IMG/VR virus record: IMGVR_UViG_3300010392_000795
Coordinates: 1 to 31,635 of that record
Source: a virus
Direction: 5' to 3' (one strand)
Length of the DNA: 31,635 bases
A program made the translations under genes and the position numbers. The notes below the pieces were generated by a model. The model worked only from the letters and a program-made list of their open reading frames with translations. It was not told the origin of the DNA and ran no database searches. Below, piece after piece: positions 3,890 to 17,426 of this stretch; the first letter of the stretch is position 1, and every line of letters begins with the position of its first letter.

Positions 3890-4321
3890 TTATACTTCAG
3901 ACAGAAGTGCTTCTTCTTCGTCAAAGTCCTTGTCAACTGCTTCCTGTGCTTCAGCGGGTGCTTCTTCAGCTTCTGCCTTTTCAGGAGCAGCGGTTTCAAC
4001 GTTCAGACCAGCGTACTTCTTGTCGGAAGGCTTCTTGATCAGGTTAGCAGATACCGCATCATTCAGACATACGCGGACAGAAGCAGCTTTGATACCTTCA
4101 CCGACTGCACCAGCAACAGCACCTTCAATGCCAGCCTTGACAGCGCGAGAGTTCGCAGCAACGATTTCATTGATGTTCAGCTCACGGCCAGCAGATGTTA
4201 CCAGCTTTGCAAACCAAGCAGCTTTATCTTGCTTCTCAACAGATGGAGACAGGGCCTTCTGCAGGTCTTCGGTCAGGTCAGAGACATCAGAGAAATCAAA
4301 TAGTGCATTAAGATCAGACAT
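3890..4321 (-). CDS. Hypothetical acidic-tailed protein, 143 aa
   Basis: 143 aa. The middle third is rich in alanine and glycine (around VAGAVGEG); the last 35 residues are a low-complexity Ala/Glu segment ending in an acidic tail (DFDEEEALLSEV). Acidic C-terminal tails occur on phage single-strand binding proteins, where they contact replication partners, but I see no OB-fold motif and do not call it one. It is the first gene after the promoter candidate at 4360-4386, with a 45-base leader, an AAAAGG ribosome site, and a run of replication genes behind it. A replication accessory role is inference from position only. Confidence 0.8.
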   Translation of the reverse strand: MSDLNALFDFSDVSDLTEDLQKALSPSVEKQDKAAWFAKLVTSAGRELNINEIVAANSRAVKAGIEGAVAGAVGEGIKAASVRVCLNDAVSANLIKKPSDKKYAGLNVETAAPEKAEAEEAPAEAQEAVDKDFDEEEALLSEV

Positions 4322-4352
4322 GGATTTACCTTTTCATGATAGGTTGATTGAT

Positions 4353-4366
4353 GGAAGACTTCTTCC
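4353..4366 (-). promoter_or_regulatory. Hairpin at the predicted 5' end of the replication transcript
   Basis: On the minus strand GGAAG-AAGT-CTTCC forms a 5-bp stem with a 4-base loop. Its first base is the predicted start base of the promoter candidate at 4360-4386, so the transcript would begin with a hairpin. This fits a 5' stabilising structure, which is inference. Confidence 0.45.
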
Positions 4367-4386
4367 GTTCAAGTAGGGGCAGGATA
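4360..4386 (-). promoter_or_regulatory. Phage-type promoter candidate, copy 1
   Basis: The minus strand reads TATCCTGCCCCTACTTGAAC followed by GGAAGAA. It matches the copy at 10390-10416 at 22 of 27 bases and lies in the only sizeable gap between the 79-aa gene and the 143-aa gene. Initiation would be expected at the GG (4366), as in T7-like promoters, where +1 is G. It would drive the 143-aa gene, primase, helicase and phosphoesterase. Confidence 0.6.
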
Positions 4387-4390
4387 CCCT

Positions 4391-4630
4391 TTACTTAGCG
4401 TTAAAGATGCCACGTGCAATGGCACCAATCTGTGATCGGTTCGGTTGACCGAGCATAATGAACTGCTCAGCACGCTGATACGCTGCCTGCTGCGCTTCTG
4501 TCCCCGGCTCACCCTTAAGCCATTTAAGCACACGCTTCATAACTTGGCGCATGATTGACTTGCGGGTCTTGTAGAGAAGACGGTTTGTCGCTGGGTTAGC
4601 CTTAGAGCTACGATAACGCGGATGTGACAT
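4391..4630 (-). CDS. Hypothetical basic protein, 79 aa
   Basis: 79 aa starting MSHPRYRSSK. The start at 4630 is chosen because a strong GGAGG lies nine bases upstream, inside the end of the preceding gene; the longer frame back to 4747 overlaps that gene and has no such site. The first 40 residues are very basic (many Lys/Arg, no acidic residue), the rest is neutral and helical. Nucleic-acid binding is possible from charge alone. I recognise no family. It is separated by one base from the 47-aa gene upstream, so the two are probably co-translated. Confidence 0.72.
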   Translation of the reverse strand: MSHPRYRSSKANPATNRLLYKTRKSIMRQVMKRVLKWLKGEPGTEAQQAAYQRAEQFIMLGQPNRSQIGAIARGIFNAK

Positions 4631-4631
4631 G

Positions 4632-4775
4632 TTATGCAGCCTCCGTGAATGCACGCTCGAATGCCACAGCCAATGCACCGCCCTTGCGGATAGCATGTTG
4701 GCCTGACTTACTCTTGCGGTAAGAAGCGTAGAACTTGCGGATATCACGGATAGGGCTATTTGATTTCTTAGACAT
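4632..4775 (-). CDS. Hypothetical basic protein, 47 aa
   Basis: An open frame of 47 codons from the ATG at 4775, with AGAGGA about seven bases before it. The product begins MSKKSNSPIRD and is strongly basic in its first 30 residues (KSKSGQHAIRKGG), ending in a short acidic-amphipathic tail. I recognise no family. Its leader carries the repeated 50-base element at 4788-4837, shared only with the 151-aa gene at 6892-7347. It ends one base before the next start. Confidence 0.7.
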   Translation of the reverse strand: MSKKSNSPIRDIRKFYASYRKSKSGQHAIRKGGALAVAFERAFTEAA

Positions 4776-4787
4776 GTTATGTCCTCT

Positions 4788-4837
4788 CGAATTTCTGATA
4801 GAAAAGTTGAAAGCCGTAGTGCTAGGAGTACGAAACC
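4788..4837 (-). promoter_or_regulatory. Repeated leader element, copy B
   Basis: On the minus strand this 50-base segment begins GGTTTCGTACTCCTAGCACT, continues ACGGCTTT, and ends AGAAATTCG. Compared with copy A (7360-7410), the first 28 bases agree at 25 positions and the last 9 at all positions, with a variable middle. It begins directly after the stop of the secreted protein gene and ends exactly 12 bases before an ATG, as in copy A. The conserved CCTAG could pair with the downstream ribosome site; this is inference. Confidence 0.6.
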
Positions 4838-5071
4838 TTACGTCTTAATACCCGGTGCACGTACAGTCTGACAGGCTGCTGCGATCACAACCTTGTCTTT
4901 TGGGTTATCTTCTAGATGTTCCAGTAGATCATCTGAGTTCGGATACAGACGCTGTGTCTGCTCCACCTGTGCTTTAGCTTCAGCGTTACAATCCTTTACG
5001 GACATAATGCCAGCATTTACTGCCTCCTGACCATTGACGGAAAGCAGTAACAGAATAAGAATAGCTTTCAT
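4838..5071 (-). CDS. Small secreted (periplasmic) protein of the lysis cassette
   Basis: 77 aa with a short hydrophobic N-terminus (KAILILLLLSV) and a likely signal-peptidase site near AVNAG around residue 21. The mature part has two cysteines (one in VKDCNAE, one in AACQTV) that could form a disulfide in the periplasm. No lipobox cysteine follows the signal, so a spanin lipoprotein is not supported. The AAGGA ribosome site is clear and the gene begins one base after the holin stop. Position after endolysin and holin suggests a lysis accessory role (inference). Confidence 0.72.
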   Translation of the reverse strand: MKAILILLLLSVNGQEAVNAGIMSVKDCNAEAKAQVEQTQRLYPNSDDLLEHLEDNPKDKVVIAAACQTVRAPGIKT

Positions 5072-5072
5072 G

Positions 5073-5462
5073 TTACTTCCTTATAGCCTTGATGATTGCA
5101 AGGACAGTACCAGTTGCAGCACCGCCTCCGAATAACGCATACACAGCGGGTTTGATAAACAACTCAACAGTCTGAGGTGGTAGCTTCTCAATGGTCCATA
5201 GATCTGGGTTCATTGATGCCAACACAACTGCTGCAGTGTATACCGAGATGCTAGTATACGTGATGAATAGTGGCCACTGTAATAGCGGAGACATACTGAA
5301 CTGTTCAAGCAGCTTAGCACGTTGCTTCCGTTCTTCTGACAGTGACTTCATAGCCTCGGCAGCTACAGCTACCCGGCCTGTGCTCTCAGTAAGCAGACGA
5401 TCCTCACGCTTAGTTATGAATGAGAAAGCTAACTTACCGAGATCAATGATAGTGGATATCAC
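5073..5462 (-). CDS. Holin-like membrane protein
   Basis: 129 aa with a GTG start overlapping the endolysin stop as GTGA. An N-terminal charged helical half (through SEERKQRAKLL) is followed by two hydrophobic segments, about residues 60-84 (LFITYTSISVYTAAVVLA) and 104-125 (VYALFGGGAATGTVLAIIK), and a short basic end. This layout is common in phage holins that sit next to a muramidase. It would form inner-membrane lesions that release or activate the endolysin. A second, different holin-like gene is at 14356-14583. Confidence 0.72.
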   Translation of the reverse strand: MISTIIDLGKLAFSFITKREDRLLTESTGRVAVAAEAMKSLSEERKQRAKLLEQFSMSPLLQWPLFITYTSISVYTAAVVLASMNPDLWTIEKLPPQTVELFIKPAVYALFGGGAATGTVLAIIKAIRK

Positions 5463-6607
5463 ACCGCTACCTGTGCAGTATACTCCATACGGAGCTTACG
5501 TGCATGTCGTTGATATAGCTTGTAGCCAGCAAAGCAGATAGCGATAGCCAGCAAGGCACCACCAACTGACAAGCCCACAGCAGCAAGGTCCGCCTTGATA
5601 TCGATAACATCAGATGCTACCTCGCTTAGTGCTTGCGGTAGATCAGACGACACTGACACTGCTACTGCACTGATACCACCAAGCACACTACCAGCCTGAC
5701 CAGACACCCGCGCCTTCTCGTTGCGCTTGCTCTCGATCACAGCATTGATACCTGCTTCCGTCATTGGACCCCACAGTCCATCGACTTCAAGCTTCTGATA
5801 CACGCCGAGACTGTTGATCTGTGTCTGCCATTTCCTGATGTTCGTCACAACATTCTTGTTGTCATCATATACCAGACCAGCCTTGGCACCGACTGTCTTG
5901 TAATGTTCCTTGTTGAACTCAACTTGTACCTGGATACGGTTGATCGCATTCGGCTTGTCCATCCAAGCGTACTTACGCTGCATACGTGCCATCTTGGTAT
6001 CATATGCATACTTCTTGTATCGCTTACCGTTATAGCCCAGAGCTACAGCGGCCCAGCGTCCATCACGAAGTGCCTTCATAAGACCATTATTCTGGCAGTA
6101 CCGCATGATACCGTCAATCTGGTTACCGGCGTTCATACTGTACGCATGTACCATATCATAAGCAGAACGATAGTCCAATGATACAGCATTGAAGCCCATA
6201 GTCTGTCCGAGGCCGAATGATGCACACTGCAAAGCAAAGCTAACCGCCTTGACTTCTGACCATCCCTCGTTATTCACGAGCTTGTTGACCAGCAGATCAA
6301 TCTGCCGCCAGCGACTTTGTTGACGACCCTGCTCGATCTGGTTCATATTACGTGATGCAAGACCAGCTTTCACGTACGCATCTGGGCGGATACCTTGTCG
6401 TACTAGCCGGCGGAATACAACATGACCTTCAAGACGGACGATCACATTGGATACTTCCTTGATACGCTCCGACCAGAAGCCAGAGGAATCAATAGTACAG
6501 AATGGATTGCCTGCACTCTCAACAGCCACCAACGCAGCAATATGCGAGACAGGGATCTTGTGCTGTAGAGCTACGTTAAAGCAAGCTCGAATGATGTTAT
6601 TTCGCAC
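5459..6607 (-). CDS. Endolysin: N-acetylmuramidase + peptidoglycan-binding domain + C-terminal membrane anchor
   Basis: 382 aa from a GTG at 6607, chosen because AAGGAG lies seven bases before it and because homologous domains begin just there; the frame extends upstream but without a ribosome site. Residues 1-190 match the DUF3380-type N-acetylmuramidase: VESAGNPF (E30), LEGH (E60, H62), and the FGLGQTMGFN and ALGYNGKRYKKYAYDTK blocks. A peptidoglycan-binding helix set follows at about 250-285 (IRKWQ, VDGLWGPMTE). The tail has a hydrophobic helix at about 340-362 (LSVGGALLAIAICFAG) and a basic end, so the enzyme may be membrane-tethered. It overlaps the 97-aa gene by 11 bases. Confidence 0.88.
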   Translation of the reverse strand: MRNNIIRACFNVALQHKIPVSHIAALVAVESAGNPFCTIDSSGFWSERIKEVSNVIVRLEGHVVFRRLVRQGIRPDAYVKAGLASRNMNQIEQGRQQSRWRQIDLLVNKLVNNEGWSEVKAVSFALQCASFGLGQTMGFNAVSLDYRSAYDMVHAYSMNAGNQIDGIMRYCQNNGLMKALRDGRWAAVALGYNGKRYKKYAYDTKMARMQRKYAWMDKPNAINRIQVQVEFNKEHYKTVGAKAGLVYDDNKNVVTNIRKWQTQINSLGVYQKLEVDGLWGPMTEAGINAVIESKRNEKARVSGQAGSVLGGISAVAVSVSSDLPQALSEVASDVIDIKADLAAVGLSVGGALLAIAICFAGYKLYQRHARKLRMEYTAQVAV

Positions 6608-6890
6608 TGGATTTCTCCTTTGGAGCCAGTTCAGGGTGGGTTGGTGGCGTTGCACCAGACAAAGACAAGAGCATACTACGTGCGTTACCTGCACGGTCGT
6701 TCTCTAGTCGAGTTCCTTTAGCTGTGAGTTCTAACGCATTCGCTTGAGCACGCAGAGCACCAGCTTGTAGTTCCATAGACTGAGCTACCTGCTCATTATT
6801 GTCCATGGCTTTGTCCAGCTCGTCAGCTAGGGATTTGAACTGTCCGAGAATGGCACCGACAGAGCGGGCCTGTTTGAATGGGTTCTTCAT
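6597..6890 (-). CDS. Hypothetical coiled-coil protein upstream of endolysin, 97 aa
   Basis: 97 aa from the ATG at 6890, chosen for its near-perfect GGAGG site; an in-frame ATG at 6944 lies inside the previous gene without one. Residues 10-75 are helical with heptad-like spacing (FKSLADELDKAMDNNEQVAQSM, alanine- and glutamine-rich), and the end is proline/lysine-rich. No membrane segment or signal is seen, so it is not an obvious spanin. It directly precedes the muramidase, one base after the 151-aa gene. No family recognised. Confidence 0.72.
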   Translation of the reverse strand: MKNPFKQARSVGAILGQFKSLADELDKAMDNNEQVAQSMELQAGALRAQANALELTAKGTRLENDRAGNARSMLLSLSGATPPTHPELAPKEKSSAK

Positions 6891-6891
6891 G

Positions 6892-7347
6892 TTACCTCCG
6901 TTTAGGATACTGCGGTAGCTTCTCGCAGATATAGTATGCGTCACTGGCTAGGTCATACGTATAGTCTGTATTACCCTCTCCACGTGCTATCTCAGCCGTG
7001 GTCGATTGGAACTTACCGAGATGTGTCATCTGAAAGTCCTCATGAATGAGCGTAGCATCTCGTCGATCTCGTGCGTCGCACGGACCAAGATGCAGGACAC
7101 TCTCCTGATCATCTGTGATATCAGTACGTAGCTCGATCACAGGCATATCACGTGCTTTGACTAGCAAGCACTGCTCATGCTGACCCTTGTAGAATCCAAG
7201 GAGAGACTTGTACCACGTTACACCAGCATCCTTTAGCTGTTCAATAATGTGATCATAATCTCCTGTTGTAGCAAAGATGACCAACTGCTCGTTGCCCATA
7301 TCACTACTATGGCCGGTTACACCGCCGGTTACCTGATTAATCTTCAT
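6892..7347 (-). CDS. Hypothetical protein, 151 aa
   Basis: 151 aa starting MKINQVTGGV. The ATG at 7347 has a strong GGAGGG site; the frame open back to 7443 runs through the conserved leader element and is rejected. The centre (SLLGFYKGQHEQCLLV, then DDQESVLHLG) resembles small phage proteins with a YKG...E...V pattern near the N-terminus and a QES motif, but I cannot assign a function. No membrane segment. Its leader carries repeat element A, so its expression may be controlled like that of the 47-aa gene. It leads the muramidase-holin group. Confidence 0.78.
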   Translation of the reverse strand: MKINQVTGGVTGHSSDMGNEQLVIFATTGDYDHIIEQLKDAGVTWYKSLLGFYKGQHEQCLLVKARDMPVIELRTDITDDQESVLHLGPCDARDRRDATLIHEDFQMTHLGKFQSTTAEIARGEGNTDYTYDLASDAYYICEKLPQYPKRR

Positions 7348-7359
7348 GTGAAATCCCTC

Positions 7360-7410
7360 CGAATTTCTAGCGCAAAATCGCCAAAGCCGTAATGCTAGGC
7401 GGACGAAACC
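7360..7410 (-). promoter_or_regulatory. Repeated leader element, copy A
   Basis: On the minus strand the segment begins GGTTTCGTCCGCCTAGCATT, continues ACGGCTTT, and ends AGAAATTCG, followed after 12 bases by the ATG at 7347. See copy B for the comparison. CGCC and GGCG flank the conserved core in this copy and could form a stem; copy B lacks that pairing, so the fold is uncertain. Confidence 0.6.
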
Positions 7411-7686: not shown

Positions 7687-8099
7687 GCCTTGTTACCTTT
7701 CATGTATGATGCGAGTAACCTATCAATACGCACAGGACACTTGCCTTCAGGGTTACTAACGACATGATGGCCGGATAGCCATGCATCACTAGTATCGTGA
7801 TAACATGCAGGCTTATGTGTAAATGCATACGCTTTGTCGTCCCTGTCACGGGCTATCCACTTGAAGTCAGGATGCAGGTGTGACCATATCACATAATCAT
7901 CCCACTCCTTCACTAGCTCGCATTCACTAGGGAATAAGTACATACCAAAGTGAACCTTAGCATATACATCACCAAAGCTAGCTGATGGACACAGCATCTC
8001 AACCGTGTGCCAATGCAGCGTTGCATGATCGGCACTGACTACACGTACGACACCATTAGGCGACAATACGGTATCATCTTTCTTAAAACCAGTAGACAT
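7653..8099 (-). CDS. Hypothetical protein, 148 aa
   Basis: 148 aa with a good AGGAG site before the ATG at 8099. The N-terminus (KKDDTVLSPNGVVRVVSAD) looks like a small beta-barrel of the kind that starts many small phage proteins; the rest is rich in His, Trp and Tyr. No recognised motif or membrane segment. It lies in the early block of small genes, one base after the 84-aa membrane protein. Confidence 0.72.
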   Translation of the reverse strand: MSTGFKKDDTVLSPNGVVRVVSADHATLHWHTVEMLCPSASFGDVYAKVHFGMYLFPSECELVKEWDDYVIWSHLHPDFKWIARDRDDKAYAFTHKPACYHDTSDAWLSGHHVVSNPEGKCPVRIDRLLASYMKGNKAWDKSLIQRPA

Positions 8100-9453: not shown

Positions 9454-9609
9454 GGTACTCTCCTATTGTTTCATGAGTAGACTGACAGGATTGGTACGCT
9501 GTGCTATACTGTTGCAGCAGACATAACGACGCATACAATGCACGGACTGCAATACATGCATGACCTGCTCTTGCCTCACCACTGAGGCCGTGCTACTTGA
9601 CACTACAGT

Positions 9610-9962
9610 CTACACAAAAAACAATAGATACTTGTGTATAGCGTATGGCATAGTGAACTCACCGTAGACCACGCCACCGCTTACACTTAGAGAGTGTACA
9701 TTGCATGTTGATACATGCTGTCCATTTGATAGGGCCTAGCTTGCTTGCCACTGTCACTAACCACATGTTACTGCTTTATGTACTCACCTGCTCATGTTCG
9801 CGTATCTTCATTTATCACATGCAAGATACGGACGTTTCATGAGAGCTAATACAAGACTGACAAGCCTAGGATAACCACACTCTCTAACCGGCGCTCTAAT
9901 TACATCCACCGTCCGCACTTATTGAATAGCTGTGCGTTGCGTTGCCGTGCTGACATACACGG
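9610..9962. repeat. Cluster of short inverted repeats (hairpins)
   Basis: Perfect stems: TACACAA/TTGTGTA (9611-9617 with 9632-9638), TACACT/AGTGTA (9682-9687 with 9693-9698), GCATGT/ACATGC (9703-9708 with 9713-9718), CGTATCTT/AAGATACG (9801-9808 with 9823-9830), CCGTG/CACGG (9945-9949 with 9958-9962). None has a run of T on the minus strand, so they are not obvious terminators. They would form hairpins in the early leader RNA. Confidence 0.5.
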
Positions 9963-10182
9963 TCTGGACCCTCGGCCCTAACTAGCTGGCTCTATCAAGG
10001 TGCTAATATGCACTCGCCTACATGTCAGTGTCATAGATATCAGGTGTTACCTGTTGCTAGTTTCGTACCTTCAGCTCTAGGCTATGGTATACCCGCTAGT
10101 GATCCTATCTATGGTCCGTATCGCAGGACTGCGTTAGTGTCTTGAGTGACTTGACTGTCTGTCTTGTCTCTCAGTGACTACG

Positions 10183-10211
10183 GTTATCTCATATCTTAAT
10201 TCATCCGTCAA
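10183..10211 (-). promoter_or_regulatory. Weak host sigma70-like promoter candidate for early genes
   Basis: On the minus strand TTGACG (10211-10206) is followed after 17 bases by GATAAC (10188-10183). The -35 matches five of six consensus bases, the -10 four of six. It is correctly oriented for the early block but 730 bases from its first gene. Confidence 0.28.
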
Positions 10212-10320
10212 CACTCTTATCTAATAAATGTGTATTTATTTATGTATATCTATCTAACTCATTGATATGTATATCTAATAATATGTATATTAATCCATCT
10301 GATAGCTTATCCTTTATAGA
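10201..10320. other. AT-rich island, possible replication origin
   Basis: Counting by eye gives 29 G/C in these 120 bases, far below the flanking coding DNA. It lies just downstream (minus-strand sense) of the phage-type promoter candidate at 10390-10416. In T7 the primary origin is a phage promoter followed by an AT-rich segment, so the arrangement suggests an origin; this is inference. Confidence 0.4.
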
Positions 10321-10389
10321 TATGTCTGCTATCGCATCCAATCTAACAGGGCTATCTATGATGGTTGATACGGATACGACCCTAAAGTT

Positions 10390-10416
10390 TTCTCCCTTTC
10401 ATTTAGGGGAAGGATA
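10390..10416 (-). promoter_or_regulatory. Phage-type promoter candidate, copy 2
   Basis: The minus strand reads TATCCTTCCCCTAAATGAAA followed by GGGAGAA. The end GAAAGGGAGA closely resembles the start region of T7/T3 promoters (+1 GGGAGA). Sixteen consecutive bases (TCCCCTAAATGAAAGG) are identical to copy 3. It lies in non-coding DNA near the probable genome end, like the origin-linked promoters of T7. Confidence 0.65.
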
Positions 10417-10530
10417 CAAAGAGCTACACAAGAGCCTATATATAAAGAACGGGTACTATCTATTGCTCATAATCAGAATGAACGTTATCAACAAGGCAAA
10501 AAGAAACAAAACAGATAGCGAGAGAACGTA

Positions 10531-10558
10531 TTGACTTACAACTGCGATGATATATACT
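10531..10558 (+). promoter_or_regulatory. Sigma70-like promoter on the plus strand
   Basis: TTGACT at 10531-10536, a 16-base spacer, and TATACT at 10553-10558. Each box matches five of six consensus bases. It would transcribe away from the early genes and antisense to the late genes; no plus-strand gene follows. Confidence 0.4.
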
Positions 10559-10585
10559 GCCCGTCAAGAGCTAAGTAAAGCGACT

Positions 10586-10615
10586 ACTCCGTCACAATTC
10601 AGTTGTTAAACGGAG
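10586..10615. repeat. Inverted repeat (hairpin) in the non-coding region
   Basis: CTCCGT and ACGGAG form a 6-bp stem around an inner ACAA/TTGT stem. No T-tract follows on either strand. It lies about 25 bases downstream of the plus-strand promoter candidate, so it would be near the 5' end of any RNA made there. Confidence 0.4.
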
Positions 10616-10717
10616 CAGCACTAAGATCGTTCTATTCGCCATTATAGCGATGGGGGACAAAGCGGCGACATATCTTCAGATACCCTCTCACAATTTTGTA
10701 GCAAATTTTGATCGAGC

Positions 10718-10789
10718 CTATGTATAGGCAAAAGCTAGTACAACAAGTACTACCACTATAATTCCGAGAACTACAACACCTGCAATCAT
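10718..10789 (-). CDS. Tiny membrane peptide, 23 aa
   Basis: An open frame of 23 codons whose ATG at 10789 overlaps the stop of the 82-aa gene as ATGA. The product is one continuous hydrophobic helix (MIAGVVVLGIIVVVLVVLAF) and a short polar end, ideal for a single membrane span. GAAGG sits almost against the ATG, too close for an independent site, so coupling is needed. It is the last late gene before the non-coding gap. A small holin, antiholin or membrane regulator is possible; nothing decides between these. A GCCTA/TAGGC hairpin overlaps its stop. Confidence 0.5.
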   Translation of the reverse strand: MIAGVVVLGIIVVVLVVLAFAYT

Positions 10790-17399: not shown

Positions 17400-17426
17400 T
17401 ATTTCCTTTCATTTAGGGGATGGATA
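17400..17426 (-). promoter_or_regulatory. Phage-type promoter candidate, copy 3
   Basis: The minus strand reads TATCCATCCCCTAAATGAAA followed by GGAAATA. It fits exactly in the gap between the stop of the 1057-aa ejection protein (17427) and the fibre ATG (17396). With initiation at GG (17406) the leader would be only 10 bases, ending in the fibre start codon. It would boost fibre and terminase expression. Confidence 0.6.

Follow-up and report, generated by a model that had tools for sequence, protein, structure and literature searches.

The early repeat of phage KP34 (Drulisvirus), AGCCTATAGCATCCTACGGGGTGCTATGTGAA, was once proposed to be either a phage promoter or a nick site (PMC4411677), and a KP34 fragment carrying the early repeat region gave no product with the KP34 polymerase in vitro (PMC6834552). 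This repeat is 32 nt long and occurs in two copies, at 1497-1528 and 2518-2549, each of which stops ahead of the ribosome site of the following gene. When the two copies were folded by the method used below for our own element, the consensus fold scored -23.3 compared with -4.8 +/- 2.3 for shuffles, and 0 of 300 shuffles were as good. Between the copies an A-U pair of the inner stem changes to G-C, and the outer stems differ in sequence and still pair. Comparison of the copies thus strongly supports an RNA stem-loop with compensatory changes, and the fold result also demonstrates that the method detects a stem when one is present. Matches to the KP34 stem were found in 239 phage records, and the stem has no Rfam family. 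Stem-loops followed by GTGA and resembling that of KP34 were also observed in phage LIMElight at 4096-4127 and 2910-2945; one has a CTACGG loop identical to that of KP34 on a stem of different sequence, and one lies directly before the LIMElight S-adenosylmethionine (SAM) lyase gene. The KP34 and LIMElight stem-loops possibly represent a wider class of early-leader RNA.

Two further systems are relevant. In LKA1 (Stubburvirus) the repeat CCGTAACCGCTGCACTCGCAGC, annotated as an LKA1-specific promoter, occurs three times in the early region, each time a short distance upstream of a gene start, with no copy annotated before late genes. In LUZ19 and phiKMV the phage promoter is the nick motif CGACnnnnnCCTACTCCGG, which precedes the capsid gene in addition to early and middle genes. 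Each of the four phage-specific promoters annotated in LUZ19 (3130, 6753, 14413 and 24765) coincides with this motif, which suggests that nick sites and RNA polymerase promoters are one and the same. Nicks in phiKMV-like virion DNA have been located at CGACnnnnnCCTA/CTCCGG (PMC3517423).

Genome setting

The sequence analyzed here (the window) is the whole of a 31,635 nt stretch, positions 1 to 31,635 of IMG/VR record IMGVR_UViG_3300010392_000795. It covers part of the genome of a phiKMV-like autographivirus, and the phage probably belongs to the group with alphaproteobacterial hosts. The best matches of the terminase, at approximately 50% identity, were to phages of Agrobacterium, Rhizobium, Paracoccus and Sphingomonas, and the top match of the helicase was to Paracoccus phage ParMal1 (45%). 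The likely genes of the window are on the minus strand. A near-identical contig overlaps the window and continues the genome upstream, where a gene for a single-subunit RNA polymerase is located shortly before the head genes.

Between the late and early genes lies a long stretch without convincing genes (9454-10785), which contains one promoter of the main class described below, at 10416, and is probably the genome-end region. From 9453 downward come the early genes, and after them primase and helicase. Immediately ahead of the replication genes, the early region (4838-6619, minus strand) encodes a lysozyme-like protein with a C-terminal hydrophobic stretch, together with a possible holin and a small protein resembling a signal peptide; a lysozyme gene is found at the same place in related alphaproteobacterial phages. 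In one phage of this host group, Agrobacterium phage Alfirin, the left region (4297-4900) contains perfect repeats of 141-235 bp, which are either real or an assembly artefact.

Layout and divergence of the two-copy element

The element is present twice on the minus strand. Copy A, read from 4837 to 4788, is GGTTTCGTACTCCTAGCACTACGGCTTT-CAACTTTTCTATC-AGAAATTCG, and copy B, read from 7410 to 7360, is GGTTTCGTCCGCCTAGCATTACGGCTTT-GGCGATTTTGCGCT-AGAAATTCG, in each case a first block, a spacer and a second block. Block 1 of copy A (28 nt, 4810..4837) directly follows the stop codon TAA of the gene before it and is identical at 25 of 28 positions to block 1 of copy B (28 nt, 7383..7410). Block 2, AGAAATTCG, is identical in all 9 positions (4788..4796 in A and 7360..7368 in B), and both copies end exactly 12 nt before an ATG, at 4775 for A and at 7347 for B. 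The spacers, of 13 nt in A (4797..4809) and 14 nt in B (7369..7382), have no sequence in common. Copy A is followed by a Shine-Dalgarno-like AGAGGA, identified in the sequence at 4782..4787, while copy B runs into the Shine-Dalgarno sequence GGAGGG at 7355..7360, of which the first G is the final base of block 2. A preliminary description of this DNA had given the coordinates and identity counts of both copies correctly, and these apply to the minus, or coding, strand. It had also called the genes after both copies early, rightly so given that the early genes from 9453 downward precede primase and helicase, and its view that the element adjoins the ribosome-binding site and is a shared cis element, as opposed to a duplicated gene, was borne out. 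The two downstream proteins do look unrelated, one being a probable SAM lyase and the other a 47-aa protein without relatives.

The repeat is real. The element pattern matched twice in the window and not at all in 100 shuffles, and the pair was the only early-region repeat above background, with a score of 19 against a shuffle maximum of 14. When the upstream regions of 35 genes were compared, the copy pair scored 21 and the runner-up pair, which proved to be two sites of the main phage promoter, scored 11.5. The third-best place for the element in the window had 9 mismatches, and no third copy was found in the window or the overlapping contig, the only such contig found, which stops short of copy B; together the two are estimated to miss 8-10 kb of the genome. 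By inspection, block 1 has a dyad symmetry, CGT-N4-CTAG-N4-ACG, which is present but marginal. A conserved leader peptide with the TAG of CCTAG as its stop codon was considered and rejected, as by inspection the copy differences are not at third codon positions.

The repeat also looks functional. Divergence between the copies is uneven: the blocks differ at 3 of 37 positions and the spacer at 11 of 14 (Fisher P = 2e-6). Since similarity of the spacer has been lost while the blocks were kept, selection on two separate blocks is indicated and not a recent neutral copy. This bears on the possibility that the leader was copied along with gene cassettes during gene shuffling and kept without any shared function. 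In its favor, phages of this kind vary in their early genes, and close relatives are lacking for both downstream proteins; a plain copy, however, should diverge evenly, and we consider a left-over of this type unlikely.

With respect to placement, the element and the KP34 repeat have much in common. Each is present in two copies restricted to the early region, no other early repeat of either genome is significant, and each begins at or near the preceding stop codon and ends shortly before the next gene start, while in sequence they are at best weakly similar (alignment P 0.04-0.9). The LKA1 repeat shares the position close upstream of gene starts and differs in sequence; its short stem, GCTGC-ACTC-GCAGC, was non-significant in the consensus-fold test. 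As in the element, CCTA and CGGC are present in the LUZ19/phiKMV promoter, which likewise precedes early genes but produced no significant alignment with the element. As sequence similarity is weak or absent, no membership in the KP34 or LUZ19 motifs is claimed. A looser kind, the repeated early-region cis element of phiKMV-like phages, can be defined by at least two copies, restriction to the early region and a position directly upstream of early gene starts, without forming a homologous family; the element has these properties in the part of the genome seen, some 8-10 kb being estimated to lie outside. It probably resembles repeats described before early genes in related viruses, and it is one of several lineage-specific early repeats that are alike in placement and different in make-up.

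Searches for relatives of the element itself returned little. A pattern search of IMG/VR gave a single match, to the interior of a coding gene in an unrelated phage, and an IMG/VR search with the 16-base core of the element gave none. Two matches from a pattern search of a genome contig collection were taken as chance, blastn of the element against phage records yielded nothing convincing, and no IMG/VR relatives were retrieved through the SAM lyase candidate, the early lysozyme-like gene or the helicase.

RNA structure

The predicted folds of the copy A and copy B leaders differ, and the whole leaders folded no better than shuffles (z of -0.1 and -0.3). No fold shared by the two copies was detected, the consensus fold being equivalent to that of column shuffles (P 0.66-0.82), and with folding z near 0 a conserved RNA fold for the element was rejected. 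Accordingly, the copies failed the fold test for a KP34-type leader stem (a compensatory stem with a UACG-type loop and GUGA after it), and no stem followed by GTGA was present in the early region of the window. The KP34 copies have a supported RNA stem, whereas the copies in the window have no common stem. Rfam covariance models at the gathering score gave no match to the element, which corresponds to no known riboswitch or RNA family; the earlier description had likewise assigned it to no riboswitch class, and a SAM riboswitch ahead of the SAM lyase gene was likewise discarded for want of an Rfam match. The suggestion that CCTAG masks the ribosome site was not supported, as the folds differ, are at the level of shuffles and have no structure in common.

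Control at the RNA level could nevertheless operate without a stable structure, the leader in both mRNAs binding a protein or a small RNA that raises or blocks translation. The element adjoins the ribosome site, and block 2 is fixed 12 nt from the ATG even though spacer length varies. Upstream promoters, such as the site at 10416, could transcribe the whole early region, so that no internal promoter would be required, and the KP34 twin repeat at a similar early site is an RNA element. Against this, the copies have no fold in common, Rfam gave no match, no complementary RNA emerged, and an unstructured site of 28 nt would be long for a protein operator. On balance we regard RNA-level binding without structure as a close rival, tentative in itself and almost as likely as the two-part expression module proposed below.

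Promoter comparisons

The main promoter class of the phage, with consensus TATCCNNCCCCTAAATGAAAGG, is different from the element and was recognized by position and repetition. Its sites are on the minus strand before the replication genes (4365..4386), ahead of the early genes (10395..10416) and before the gene in the tail-fibre position (17405..17426); in the early region such sites are otherwise sparse (10416 and 4386). A variant form of the motif lies directly after the RNA polymerase gene in the near-identical contig. Comparable repeated motifs are present in the relatives RHEph02, X3_9, Paso, NMeng1 and Atu_ph03, that of RHEph02 being TTAGTCCTCACTATTAGGATAA. Like the element, the main class is found upstream of genes, and a CCTA-N7-GG register is common to both; unlike the element, it follows the RNA polymerase gene and precedes both the replication genes and the gene in the tail-fibre position.

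When the main-class profile was run over the window, the element copies ranked 412 and 942 of 63,222 places, and the element does not match the main-class consensus for promoters of the phage polymerase. If the element is a promoter, it is therefore not one of the main promoter motif. Sigma-70-type promoters (-35 and -10 hexamers with 16-18 nt spacing) were found at neither copy, and scan counts equalled chance. The pattern C.CCTA-N7-GG, which was picked after the fact, occurs 7 times in the window, always on the coding strand: at the 3 main promoter sites, at the 2 element copies and at 2 places within genes.

The presence of CCTA and CGG in the element also raises the question of a DNA processing site, that is, a site-specific nick or recombination site as in phiKMV-like phages that happens to precede two genes by chance. 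The full nick motif CGACnnnnnCCTACTCCGG is absent from both copies, with only CCTA and CGG in common, and such a site would account neither for block 2 nor for the fixed spacing from the ATG. In the KP34-like phage fHe-Kpn01, moreover, the inferred nick at 7873 is far from the KP34 early repeat positions (PMC7291057). We therefore consider this reading very improbable, and both it and the gene-shuffling left-over are less likely than the expression module and RNA-level control.

Genes downstream of the element

The gene after copy A (4632..4775, minus strand) encodes, as read from the sequence, a 47-aa basic protein with no match to a protein family or to a phage protein. The gene after copy B (6892..7347, minus strand) encodes a 151-aa protein that is a probable S-adenosylmethionine lyase with a predicted anti-restriction role. 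This assignment is drawn from a match to Pfam PF23780 (E 5.5e-6; 26.8 bits, just below the curated cut-off of 28) and from residues G51, Y53 and E58 (G-x-Y-x4-E), which are invariant among this protein and the family members in LIMElight and the Pseudomonas phage ErraM. Both of these phiKMV-like phages carry their PF23780-family members in their early regions, and the leaders of these genes do not resemble the element. The protein after copy B was not listed in a six-frame genome search with the PF23780 family. SAM pocket residues of Svi3-3 are Gly56, Tyr58 and Glu69 (PMC7877911); the Gly-x-Tyr of our candidate fits this pocket, while the match of Glu58 comes from the family alignment only, since the Gly-to-Glu distance differs. 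An AlphaFold model of the candidate had a mean pLDDT of 32 and was set aside. SAM lyases act against restriction-modification, and that of T3 is the first viral protein made (PMC8406200).

Discussion

The reading that we tentatively place first, at somewhat less than an even chance, is that the element is a compact, portable, two-part expression module. Block 1 would be a sequence-specific DNA site of 28 nt that starts or activates transcription locally, and block 2 together with the Shine-Dalgarno sequence would provide efficient ribosome docking, so that the same element before both genes would give both the same timing and level. The arrangement of block, free spacer and block beside a Shine-Dalgarno sequence, without a common fold, fits a DNA recognition site joined to a ribosome-docking block, and the sharp edges of block 1, together with the lack of a fold common to the copies, are more readily reconciled with a DNA site than with a structured RNA.

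The GG of TACGGCTTT is a candidate transcription start, because conservation would then extend from about -24 to +6, approximately the size of a promoter for a single-subunit polymerase, and because CCTA-N7-GG stands in the same register as in the main promoter class; this span and register, both noted post hoc, are suggestive of a promoter. A factor-activated host promoter would also be possible within the module. The annotated phage promoters of LUZ19 and LKA1, which lie in the early region near gene starts, and the sparseness of main-class sites in the early region of the window count in favor of a promoter, and the capsid gene leader of the window, AGAAAGGA, counts in favor of docking by block 2. 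The sequence AGAAA can base-pair with the terminus of the 16S rRNA of alphaproteobacteria.

Several observations argue against a promoter. The main-class profile does not recognize the copies, similarity to the LUZ19 promoters is not significant, and no host-type promoter was predicted at the element. A promoter would need no conservation of block 2. The inactivity of the KP34 early twin repeat as a template for its own polymerase in vitro (PMC6834552) also weighs against it. We regard as doubtful the broader proposition that an unstructured two-block leader ties the SAM lyase and a second early protein to one phage-encoded or host factor, as a class of control for early phage genes distinct from known promoter types and known RNA families.

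As judged from sequence and position, the element belongs to a known kind of early-region cis element, of which it represents a lineage-specific version. In several phiKMV-like phages, short early-gene repeats have been called promoters from sequence prediction alone. The KP34 repeat resembles an RNA stem and the element described here has no common stem, which offers a division, open to testing, of the early elements of one phage group into an RNA type and a DNA type. The element also lies beside a probable anti-restriction gene, and the timing of anti-restriction is critical early in infection; the probable SAM lyase encoded after copy B would destroy a cofactor used by bacterial defences.
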